Positions 18,128 through 44,575 of a stretch of DNA of 44,948 nt are shown here, in pieces (positions within the stretch are counted from its first letter, which is position 1; every line of letters starts with the position of its first letter). The stretch comes from Roseiflexus sp. (lineage in GTDB: Bacteria > Chloroflexota > Chloroflexia > Chloroflexales > Roseiflexaceae), in contig JAGHYV010000036.1 in NCBI GenBank assembly GCA_017743475.1, positions 1 to 44,948 on the forward strand, in the 5' to 3' direction. The translations under genes and the position numbers were made by a program. The notes beneath the pieces are model-generated. The model was not told the origin of the DNA. It saw only the letters and a list, made by a program, of their open reading frames with translations, and made no database searches.

Positions 18128-18191
18128 GAGCAGCAGTGTGGGATATGCAGGGGCTACGGGAGGTGATGCGCACACGCAACGGTCAGTAGAA

Positions 18192-18375
18192 AGCGCATGG
18201 GCTGCGGGTCCTTTCCCGCAGTTGACGAGGGTGGAGGTTCCCTGTCGCGCGACAGGGCTAACGTTGGCGTCGCCGACGGAACATCGAGAGATCAGCGGAT
18301 GCCTCCCAGGCGTGCTGCCGCCTGTGAGCGCTCTGGGAAACCCATCCGGCGACGGGTGGAACAAAGCGGAGCGCA
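18192..18375 (+). ncRNA. glmS ribozyme (GlcN6P-dependent self-cleaving riboswitch)
   Basis: The leader of glmS contains the conserved core of the glmS ribozyme. It has A|GCGC at the cleavage site (between 18192 and 18193), GACGAGGGTGGAGGTT (18224-18239) and AACATCGA (18280-18287). GATCAGCGGATGCCTCCC (18290-18307) follows, and its CCTCC is complementary to GGAGG at 18233-18237. Supporting hairpins are CCCTGTC/GACAGGG (18240-18246 with 18251-18257), GTTGGC/GCCGAC (18263-18274), and CCCAG/CTGGG (18305-18309 with 18333-18337). A P4-like stem CCATCCG/CGGGTGG (18342-18348 with 18353-18359) is closed by a GCGA tetraloop. In characterised examples, glucosamine 6-phosphate acts as coenzyme for self-cleavage and the cut mRNA is degraded. 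The class is best known from Firmicutes. The 3' boundary is approximate. Confidence 0.93.
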
Positions 18376-18526
18376 GTCAGCGCCCCTTCCTGTAAGACGC
18401 ATCGAAGACTGTGGATGCCCCGCGCAGTTAGGCGTCATTCTCATGAAGCACGTGCTGGTTCGGAACCGGTTGCGCGGCGTGTAGCGCAGCGCCGCGACTC
18501 TTCGTGCGTGCAGAAAGGAAAAGCGC
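18376..18526 (+). other. Spacer between the ribozyme and glmS
   Basis: This is about 150 bases of GC-rich leader with no ORF supported by a ribosome binding site until the AAAGGAAAA just before glmS. I see no clear terminator. Confidence 0.5.
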
Positions 18527-20371
18527 ATGTGTGGCATTGTTGGCTATATTGGACCGCGTGATGCCGGTGAAGTTCTGCTCCACGGTCTGGGGCGGCTCGA
18601 ATATCGCGGGTATGACTCAGCGGGCATTGCCGTTGATGACGGGCGACAGTTGCAATTACGGCGCAGCGTTGGGAAACTTGCAAATCTGGCGGCACAGTTG
18701 CGGGAACAACCGGTCGTCGGGCGCTGCGGCATCGGGCATACTCGCTGGGCGACGCACGGCGGCGTTACCGAGGAAAATGCGCACCCGCACCGCGACGCCT
18801 CAGGCGAGATTGTCGTGATCCAGAACGGCATCGTCGAAAACTATCTCGAACTGAAGGAGCGCCTGATCGCGCACGGTCATCAGTTTGCATCGCAGACGGA
18901 TACCGAAGTCATCGCCCGTCTCCTGGGCGAATACTACGATGAAACCGGGTCGCTCGAACAGGCGATGCGACGCACGCTCGCCGAGTTGCGCGGCGGTAAT
19001 GCAGTGGTAGCAATGACGCGCCGCGAGCCGGGGCGCATCATTGCCGCGCGCCTGGGGCATGCAGGCGGAATCGTCATCGGTGTGGGCGATGATGAAATGT
19101 TCGTCGCGTCCGACGTGCCGGCGATCCTTGATTATACCCGGCGCGTCATCTTTCTAGACGACCGTGAAATCGCGGTGATCGACGCCAATGGAGCGACAAT
19201 CTCGCGCCTGGACGGAACGCCGGTCATTCGCACTCCCATAACAATCCCGTGGGATCCGGTGTCTGCCGCTAAGGGCGACTTCAAGCATTTCATGCAGAAG
19301 GAGATCTTCGAGCAACCGCGTGCGCTGACCGATGTGTTGCGCGGGCGGATCGATCTCGACCATGGCGCAGTTCTGCTCGATGAACTTGCCTTCGATGAGC
19401 AGGAACTGCGGCAGCTGGAACGGATCTACGCAGTAGGGTGCGGGACGGCATGGCACGCGGCGCTGGTGGCGAAGTTTGCCATCGAAACGCTGGCGCGATT
19501 GCGCGTCGAGGTAGATTACGGATCCGAGTTCCGGTACCGTGACCCGCTGATCGGCGAGCACGTTGCCGTGCTTGCGATCACCCAGAGTGGTGAAACTGTC
19601 GATACGCTGGCAGCGATGGAAGAAGCGCGGCGGCATCGGGCAAAGAGCATTGCCATCGTCAACGTGGTTGGCAGTCAGGCGGCACGACTGGCGGATGGCG
19701 GAGCAATCTACCTGCACGCCGGTCCTGAAATCGGCGTCGCTTCGACGAAGGCATTCACCACGATGCTGGTGGCATCCTACCTGCTGGCGCTGCGGTTGGG
19801 CGCAGTGCGGGGCGTGATCTCCAACGATGAGGTGCGTCGTTACATTCAGGCGCTGATCGAACTCCCCGGCAAGGTTGAGCGTATTCTAGAGCGCCAGGAG
19901 ATCTACAAGGAACTAGCCGAACGCTACCACAACGTGCGTGATGCGCTCTATCTCGGCAGACAGGTGAACTATCCTGTGGCGCTGGAAGGGGCGCTGAAGC
20001 TGAAGGAGATTAGTTACATTCACGCCGAGGGGTATCCAGCTGGCGAAATGAAACACGGTCCGATTGCCCTGATCGACCGCGATCTGCCGGTGGTGTGCAT
20101 TGCCATGCGCGACAGCGTCTATGAGAAAATGATCTCGAACATTGAGCAGGTTCGGGCGCGCGGTGGGCATGTGATCGCTATTGCTGCCGAGGGTGACGCC
20201 TTGATCGCATCGAAAGCGGATTATGTGATCGAAGTGCCGCAGACGTTGCCGCTGTTGACCCCGGTGCTCACCAGTGTGCCGATGCAACTGCTGGCGTACC
20301 ATATCGCCGTGCGTCGCGGTTGTGATGTGGATCAGCCGCGCAATCTGGCGAAGAGTGTGACGGTGGAATGA
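18527..20371 (+). CDS. glmS: Glutamine--fructose-6-phosphate aminotransferase (isomerising)
   Basis: It makes glucosamine 6-phosphate from fructose 6-phosphate and glutamine, the first step of UDP-GlcNAc and peptidoglycan precursor synthesis. The 614-aa protein has the mature Cys nucleophile right after Met (MCGIVGYIG), GLRRLEYRGYDSAGI-like sequence and GHTRWATHG in the glutaminase domain. Two SIS domains follow, with the TQSGETVDT and STKAFTT segments, and the family ending NLAKSVTVE. Length is typical. It is preceded by a glmS ribozyme that its product should activate, a direct feedback loop. A ferrochelatase-family gene follows 25 bases downstream, probably in the same transcript. Confidence 0.97.
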   Translation: MCGIVGYIGPRDAGEVLLHGLGRLEYRGYDSAGIAVDDGRQLQLRRSVGKLANLAAQLREQPVVGRCGIGHTRWATHGGVTEENAHPHRDASGEIVVIQNGIVENYLELKERLIAHGHQFASQTDTEVIARLLGEYYDETGSLEQAMRRTLAELRGGNAVVAMTRREPGRIIAARLGHAGGIVIGVGDDEMFVASDVPAILDYTRRVIFLDDREIAVIDANGATISRLDGTPVIRTPITIPWDPVSAAKGDFKHFMQKEIFEQPRALTDVLRGRIDLDHGAVLLDELAFDEQELRQLERIYAVGCGTAWHAALVAKFAIETLARLRVEVDYGSEFRYRDPLIGEHVAVLAITQSGETVDTLAAMEEARRHRAKSIAIVNVVGSQAARLADGGAIYLHAGPEIGVASTKAFTTMLVASYLLALRLGAVRGVISNDEVRRYIQALIELPGKVERILERQEIYKELAERYHNVRDALYLGRQVNYPVALEGALKLKEISYIHAEGYPAGEMKHGPIALIDRDLPVVCIAMRDSVYEKMISNIEQVRARGGHVIAIAAEGDALIASKADYVIEVPQTLPLLTPVLTSVPMQLLAYHIAVRRGCDVDQPRNLAKSVTVE

Positions 20372-20396: not shown

Positions 20397-21341
20397 ATGA
20401 ACTATGAAGACATCCCGCAAACCGGCGTCCTGGTTCTGGAGTACGGCGAACCGGCAACGCTCGACGATATTGTTCCTTACCTGACAGCACACTACCACGG
20501 GCATCCGCCGTCACCAAGAGATATTGCGTATATGCGCGAACGGTGCCAGCGGGTGTGGAGCGGAACAAGCGGCGACTCTGCTGCCAGGCGACTTGCCGCC
20601 GCACTCGATGATGAACTGCGACAGCGATTCGGATCACGCTTTCAGGTCGTTCTGGGCGCCCGTCACTGGCATCCGACGGTGGCTGATGCACTGGCGCACC
20701 TTGTTCGAACTGGCATCCAATGCGTTCTTGCATTGCCCCTCAGCCCCATCGCCTCACAGATGAGCCTGCGCAGTCACCAGGAAGCGCTCGAACGCGCGCA
20801 GACCGAAGTCGCTCGTCCAGTGCGCCTGCATCTGATCCCCGACTGGCCCGATCTGCCGGGCTATTATTCGACGCTAACGATTAATGCGACTCTTGCGCTG
20901 GAGCGTCTGCCGGATCGTGATCGCAGTCGAACAGCGCTGCTTGCAATTGCTCACAGTGTTGCCGAAAGCGCACGCAAACCGGAAGCGGAATACCAGTGGC
21001 GGCTGCGGCAAACGATGCAACGCCTGGTTTCCACGCTCGGCTGCGACGCCGGATATCTGGCGTACTACGGTGCCGAGGGTCCCGGTCAGTGGCTTGGTCC
21101 CGATGTGTTGTCGGCGCTGGATGAGATTGCCCGTGCAGGGTTCCGGCACGTGCTGGCGGTTCCCATCAACACCGTCTATGACAACGTCGAAGTGTGTTAC
21201 GAACTCGATGTGCGTATGGCAGAGCGGGCCGCTGCGCTTGGATTGGGGTACGTTCGCGCTGACATCCCCAACGCCGCGCCAGCGCTCATCGCTGACCTTG
21301 CCACGCTCGTTGCGCAGATGGCTGCCGTTTTCCAGAACTGA
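20397..21341 (+). CDS. hemH: Ferrochelatase-family protein (HemH/CpfC-like)
   Basis: It is expected to insert iron into a porphyrin or coproporphyrin in haem synthesis. The 314-aa protein shows the family's architecture. The N-terminal VLVLEYGEPATLDDIVPYL opens it, followed by the region LPLSPIASQMSLRSHQEAL. The catalytic histidine context is AIAHSVAES, where S-A-H-S-x-P is usual. Near the C-terminus GPDVLSALDEI and VPINTVYDNVEVCYELDV correspond to the canonical ...DHxEVLYDLD segment. Several canonical residues are replaced (N for H near 250), so it is a divergent member. A different chelatase or a role in siroheme- or haem-like metabolism is possible. GAGG lies 6 bases before ATG 20397. Confidence 0.75.
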   Translation: MNYEDIPQTGVLVLEYGEPATLDDIVPYLTAHYHGHPPSPRDIAYMRERCQRVWSGTSGDSAARRLAAALDDELRQRFGSRFQVVLGARHWHPTVADALAHLVRTGIQCVLALPLSPIASQMSLRSHQEALERAQTEVARPVRLHLIPDWPDLPGYYSTLTINATLALERLPDRDRSRTALLAIAHSVAESARKPEAEYQWRLRQTMQRLVSTLGCDAGYLAYYGAEGPGQWLGPDVLSALDEIARAGFRHVLAVPINTVYDNVEVCYELDVRMAERAAALGLGYVRADIPNAAPALIADLATLVAQMAAVFQN

Positions 21342-25138: not shown

Positions 25139-25380
25139 ATGAAGATTGGAGGATTAAGTTCAGTGTAGCGAATTGACCGTCGAGCTCGTGGAGATTGAGG
25201 ACTTAATCCAGTATGCGCCTCTCGCCGTCGGGATAAAGCCCTCCGCTATCTAAAGCGAAGCCCGCCTGCGCGGGCTAGACCGGATTATTTATTCAAAGAC
25301 CATAAGCCCTCGGCTCTTCAAGGCGAAGCCCGCCTGCCAGGCGAGAGCGGAGTAATTGCTCAACAACTACGAGCCTGCTT
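25139..25380 (+). repeat. Composite interspersed repeat (AGCCCGCCTGCGCGGGCT family), locus 1
   Basis: The locus has two units of GGAGATTGAGGA.TTAATCC / AAGCCCTC.GCT / AAGCCCGCCTGCGCGGGCTAGA.CGGATTATTTA.TCAAAGACCATAAG type. The hairpin core lies at 25259-25276. The same family occurs inverted at 28420-28555 and again at 44322-44575. Confidence 0.75.
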
Positions 25381-44321: not shown

Positions 44322-44575
44322 GCTGATGGAGATTGAGCATTTATTCCGCTCTACGGCGCTAGCCGTGGGGCTGATGGAGATTGAGAAATAAATCCGCTAT
44401 ACGCCTCTTGCCGTGGGGCTAAAGCCCTCGGCTATGGAATGCAAAGCCCGCCTGCGCGGGCTATGATGGATTATTTACTCAAAGACCATAAGCCCTCGGC
44501 TATGGAATGCAAAGCCCGCCTGCGCGGGCTAGAGCGGAATAATTACTCAAAGGCCATAAGCCCTCGGCTAGACCC
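44322..44575 (+). repeat. Composite interspersed repeat (AGCCCGCCTGCGCGGGCT family), locus 3
   Basis: The locus has several units: GGGCTGATGGAGATTGAGAAATAAATCCGCT, then AAGCCCTCGGCTATGGAATGCAAAGCCCGCCTGCGCGGGCT with TATTTACTCAAAGACCATAAG. Hairpin cores lie at 44445-44462 and 44513-44530, and the units are tandem. It is the most complete copy of the family also seen at 25139-25380 and 28420-28555. Confidence 0.8.

Follow-up and report, generated by a model that had tools for sequence, protein, structure and literature searches.

An insert-type glmS ribozyme in the glmS leader of Roseiflexus and its relatives in Chloroflexota

The glmS locus and the core of the leader RNA

The window, a stretch of 44,948 nucleotides from Roseiflexus sp. 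(contig JAGHYV010000036.1), carries glmS on its forward strand, followed by a gene for a HemH-like protein and preceded by a leader that matches the glmS ribozyme family of Rfam (RF00234). The match spans 18181-18384 on the forward strand and covers the model completely (positions 1-167), and scores 78.1 bits, where the gathering threshold is 37 bits (E 2.2e-16; cmscan, Rfam 15). It is the single RF00234 copy in the 4.97 Mb genome and ends about 150 bases 5' of glmS; in one set of relatives examined with their flanks, nearly all are likewise located 5' of this gene. Since the score lies above the gathering threshold and the downstream gene is glmS by TIGR01135, the claim of the first-pass annotation that a glmS-class ribozyme occupies the glmS leader holds under the covariance-model check that it had proposed, and the family assignment is secure. 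The features of the locus are given below; ribozyme positions are counted from the cleavage site (G1 = 18193), and the numbering of P2.2 follows PMC7125110.

18099..18127, forward: weak sigma-70-like promoter candidate 5' of the ribozyme, TTGACC-17-TATGCT (consensus scan alone, 9/12)
18192..18193, forward: predicted cleavage site, A(-1)/G(+1) (RF00234 alignment; A at -1 in 36/37 parsed glnA-linked and 26/26 parsed glmS-linked relatives)
18194..18197, forward: P2.2 5' strand; C2 (18194), G3 (18195) and C4 (18196) pair with G18297, C18296 and G18295 (first two pairs invariant in 31 sequences)
18200..18223, forward: P1 hairpin, 18200-18208 with 18215-18223 (RF00234 alignment; centroid fold; 7/7 counted pairs with compensatory changes)
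18226..18228, forward: P2.1 5' strand CGA; C18226, G18227 and A18228 pair with G18286, C18285 and U18284 (invariant in 31 sequences)
18233..18237, forward: P2 5' strand, pairing with 18302-18306 (100% paired; 3/5 pairs with compensatory changes)
18284..18286, forward: P2.1 3' strand UCG (invariant in alignment A1)
18294..18307, forward: P2.2 3' strand (AGCG) and P2 3' strand (RF00234 alignment, 31-sequence alignment)
18307..18324, forward: P3, 18307-18312 with 18319-18324 (RF00234 alignment, centroid fold)
18328..18374, forward: outer helix of the P4 arm, 18328-18335 with 18367-18374 (RF00234 alignment, centroid fold)
18338..18359, forward: interior of the P4 arm, with internal loop AAA 18338-18340, P4 18342-18348 with 18353-18359, and GCGA loop 18349-18352 (RF00234 alignment, centroid fold)
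18527..20371, forward: glmS, glutamine--fructose-6-phosphate transaminase (TIGR01135 787.7 bits, cut-off 418)
20397..21341, forward: HemH-like ferrochelatase paralogue (PF00762 164.7 bits)

The cleavage site A|GCGC and the core letters ACGAGG, UCGA and GCGGAUG are all present. The motifs that had been read from the sequence at first pass lie where they were placed (A18192|GCGC, GACGAGG at 18224-18230, GGAGGTT at 18233-18239, AACATCGA at 18280-18287 and GCGGATGCCTCCC at 18295-18307); both halves of the core were rightly quoted, but the variant insert between them went unmentioned. The GCGA tetraloop reported to close a stem is found at 18349-18352, where it caps P4. The P3/P4 arm is present in the RF00234 alignment and in the centroid fold, with an adenine internal loop and a GNRA tetraloop; solved structures (PMC11602151) show the tetraloop and the adenine loop of the P4 arm docked against P1 and the core. 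The suggested folding of the region gave a mixed result: P1, P3 and the P4 arm are seen in the centroid fold, but the whole element has an unexceptional z of -1.65, which is uninformative as evidence because such a value is expected for a GC-rich pseudoknotted RNA.

The strands of the predicted P2.1/P2.2 double pseudoknot are complementary and almost invariant, and for this reason they show no covariation. In the window P2.2 has three of its four pairs, the fourth position being a mismatch of A5 (A18197) with A18294. By homology with the known structures, P2.1 and P2.2 would build the active site, with the UCG strand in the cofactor pocket and G18227 as the putative general base (PMC11602151, PMC7125110). 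A single change at the P2.2 pair 5/53 costs the T. tengcongensis core about 1000-fold (PMC7125110); this pair is poorly conserved in nature, and A/A occupies it in 14 of the 26 parsed glmS-linked relatives.

The HemH-like reading frame starts with the ATG at 20397, 25 bases past the glmS stop, as had been noted. Its product can be aligned with ferrochelatases along its length and retains the His and Glu motifs that are catalytic in these enzymes; in the comparison with the ferrochelatase 1ak1, the motifs IAHSVAE and DNVEVCYE are matched. It scores 114.6 against TIGR00109, below the cut-off of 124.6, and a stronger ferrochelatase (276 bits) is encoded on another contig of the genome. The gene follows glmS directly in the four relatives of the same genus that were fetched with flank, and in no other Chloroflexales locus within the fetched flank. 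It is probably co-transcribed with glmS, and ribozyme cleavage would probably lower the mRNA of both genes. The co-control suggested at first pass is plausible at the level of the transcript, with the adjacency confined to the genus; the haem-amino-sugar link drawn from it is weak, and a regulon of that kind was rejected given the genus-limited gene order and the better ferrochelatase elsewhere.

Elsewhere in the window, Rfam matches to CRISPR-DR28 at 25254-25277, 44440-44463 and 44508-44531 belong to a hairpin repeat that is dispersed through the genome in 48 exact copies; their identification as CRISPR was rejected, since the repeat is dispersed and no array was seen within the window.

The two-hairpin insert in J2/2.1

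P2 and P2.1 are separated by two hairpins, which come from an insertion of 40 bases (18240-18279); at this place the Rfam model has a short loop and cmscan counts 48 inserted bases. From P2 to P2.1 the joint reads UU, hairpin I of seven pairs, CUAA, hairpin II of seven pairs, and GAAC.

18240..18257, forward: extra hairpin I, 18240-18246 with 18251-18257 (7/7 pairs with compensatory changes; 94.8% paired)
18258..18261, forward: CUAA spacer separating the hairpins (A69 and A70 invariant, T68 nearly invariant in alignment A1)
18262..18278, forward: extra hairpin II, 18262-18268 with 18272-18278 (6/6 counted pairs with compensatory changes; 92.9% paired)

When folded alone, the insert forms exactly these two hairpins, with a joint z of -3.1. 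Covariation was assessed with 31 sequences from Chloroflexales and other families of Chloroflexota. P1, P2 and both extra hairpins together have 23 pairs with compensatory changes, a count reached by none of 500 shuffles. In MAFFT alignment A1 hairpin I of the glnA-linked copies is one base out of register (corrected in a separate alignment, A2), which slightly reduces the counts for that hairpin; shifting the pairing partners along the 31-sequence alignment abolishes the signal. From these comparisons, the window ribozyme is a member of a covariation-supported insert subtype of Chloroflexota. The extra hairpins most likely form a module for docking or stabilisation; the loop of hairpin I is usually GNRA-like among the aligned relatives, and we speculate that it may dock.

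The window ribozyme shares with the canonical form (RF00234; Bacillus, Thermoanaerobacter) the cleavage site, P1, P2, P3 and the putative P2.1 and P2.2, as well as the P4 arm with its adenine internal loop and GNRA tetraloop and the position 5' of glmS. It differs in J2/2.1, which has four bases in the canonical ribozyme and two hairpins here, and in the fourth pair of P2.2, which is A/A in the window. Copies with canonical architecture also occur in other Chloroflexota (e.g., L002-L010 and L151-L161); these agree with the window in phylum, gene and outer architecture, but they lack the two-hairpin insert and, where a tree position was obtained, belong to more distant GlmS branches. McCown and co-workers in 2011 reportedly described variants from Deinococcus-Thermus that carry additional stems within the catalytic core; no Deinococcus glmS leaders for comparison were found among the plasmid-record matches listed.

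Distribution in Chloroflexota and alternative readings

A match to RF00234 (E <= 0.001) was detected in 125 of 400 sampled Chloroflexota genomes from many families, 111 of them passing the Rfam cut-off; among 14 control genomes, Deinobacterium chartae also carries one. The insert recurs in Chloroflexales and Anaerolineae, and insert-free canonical copies are present in other families of the phylum. A model built from the 31-sequence insert-type set (R1) matches 48 of the 82 genomes of Chloroflexales, the order of the window. Applied to 80 named GlmS loci outside the training set, it gave 33 matches, almost all just 5' of glmS, in records named Chloroflexota and in one MAG with a Spirochaetaceae label, which the GlmS tree places among Anaerolineales. 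Three of the 33 (L096, L112 and L082) are without the insert and L098 has a single hairpin. In L082 and L096 J2/2.1 is canonical and the linker from P2.1 to P2.2 carries an additional hairpin; in L112 the joint is canonical and the strand on the cleavage side is altered. In family f3, five copies (L038, L039, L042, L044 and L045) are diverged and possibly degenerate; their second hairpin is long, and P2.1 has GCG instead of UCG.

Mapped onto a tree built from 110 GlmS proteins, the insert label requires 6 changes, against 35 when shuffled, the rows labelled insert-not-found having been searched with R1 alone; the window falls, with strong support, within a clade of Chloroflexales that bear the insert. 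The tree was obtained by a quick method without a mixture model, so that its deep joins are uncertain. The pattern is that of an old trait with some losses and is unlike recent transfer.

We give a probability of about 93% to the reading that 18181-18384 is an insert-subtype glmS ribozyme that exerts feedback control of glmS. It builds on the family match, the core letters, the covarying stems and the place before glmS, all of which are observed; cleavage, cofactor, decay route and hairpin role are the steps that we infer. When glucosamine-6-phosphate (GlcN6P) is abundant, the leader would fold into the P2/P2.1/P2.2 double pseudoknot, bind GlcN6P as a cofactor and cut itself at A18192|G18193. 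The downstream fragment with a 5'-OH, including glmS and probably also the ferrochelatase-like gene, would then be degraded as in Bacillus. RNase J degrades the cleaved glmS mRNA in B. subtilis, and the genome encodes an RNase J homologue (603.9 bits).

The element could instead be a slow or inactive relic that has kept its fold, with glmS controlled by other means. The A5/A53 mismatch in P2.2, at a helix where mismatches are penalised in vitro (PMC7125110), and the big insertion near the active site speak for this, and the diverged f3 copies may be such cases. Relics should decay, whereas here the core letters are invariant over Chloroflexales and Anaerolineae and the stems are maintained by compensatory change; moreover, most of the natural insert-type copies that were parsed have A/A. 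The relic reading has only a small chance of being correct. That the hairpins are an unrelated insertion sitting in the leader, for instance a repeat element, might be suggested by the many dispersed hairpin repeats of this genome, one with 48 exact copies; this idea is refuted by the covariation, the position, spacer and covariation being shared by dozens of species from several families, and the hairpin sequence differs from that of the 48-copy repeat.

Given that the class is generally best known from Firmicutes, the first-pass annotation had regarded the copy as a range extension or a sign of transfer. Acquisition from Firmicutes by horizontal transfer is very improbable: the two fetched Firmicutes loci have the canonical form and lack the insert type, the ribozyme occurs in many families of Chloroflexota and the window is nested in the Chloroflexales GlmS clade. 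The earlier proposal fails in both its forms, as 125 of 400 genomes carry the ribozyme and its type follows the GlmS tree. Transfer into the lineage of the window is thereby disfavoured; an old transfer into the phylum may have taken place, Firmicutes and Deinococcota being hardly sampled. Simply as a Chloroflexota glmS ribozyme, the window copy is ordinary, and Chloroflexales copies of this sort were presumably within reach of earlier surveys.

Variant copies upstream of glnA and other genes

The insert-type ribozyme is present in 85 of 101 genomes of Anaerolineaceae (family f45), most of which carry two copies. The family was identified through genome G311, whose GlmS is almost the same as that of a record with this name. 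The second copies (L055, L057, L059, L061, L063 and L211-L250) are located directly 5' of glnA, encoding a type I glutamine synthetase, in 40 of the 44 examined. L215, L226, L228 and L245 are variant second copies with no glnA within the following 1.1-1.6 kb, where the forward reading frames looked spurious. In family f13, 12 second copies (L261-L268, L270, L271, L273 and L274) precede an Ada-like gene (AraC-HTH plus O6-methylguanine methyltransferase), and one precedes glnA. The Ada-like gene is followed by an EamA exporter wherever the locus sequence is long enough (L261 and L274 end early), and at L273 and L274 the 5' strand of the ribozyme is unrecognised. A further insert-type copy (L168, genome G011) lies 5' of genes for a DegT-type aminotransferase, a Gfo/Idh-type oxidoreductase and a murF-like protein, instead of glmS.

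Taken separately, the glnA-linked copies also have covarying stems (alignment A2; compensatory changes at 22 of 35 pairs). P2.2 position 4, which is C in 26/26 parsed glmS-linked copies, is replaced by G or A in nearly all the glnA- or Ada-linked variants; in the 37 parsed glnA-linked copies, position 4 is always G or A, position 5 always C and position 53 always A. This is most simply explained by a shifted P2.2, with position 4 bulged out and C5 probably paired with G54; work on mutants of the T. tengcongensis core led to the proposal of such a rearrangement (PMC7125110). The letters of the pocket, UCG and GCGG, have hardly changed, which makes GlcN6P the likely cofactor of the glnA-linked copies; that the variants next to glnA and the Ada-like gene, which they may control, use another cofactor is doubtful. 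The relatives show that the insert type has duplicated; the second copies may form a variant subclass in two families, and there is a good chance that those linked to glnA are functional ribozymes of a new regulon.

Only 6 of the 18 glnA-linked loci scanned reach the Rfam threshold, and with about a third of those tested passing, such copies are easy to overlook. A literature search for glmS ribozymes associated with glnA returned nothing relevant, which is weak evidence of novelty as few subscription papers were covered; as far as the literature searched shows, what is new are the insert subtype and its glnA-linked relatives.

The solved glmS structures have a short J2/2.1; here, evolution has set two stems beside the cofactor pocket, and both are kept across much of Chloroflexota. 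The glnA-linked copies offer a natural series of P2.2 mutants for testing the contribution of that helix. If their proposed role is true, glutamine synthesis, which provides the nitrogen source for GlmS, would be a second target of ribozyme control, and through glnA the supply of glutamine would be coupled to the demand for amino sugars.
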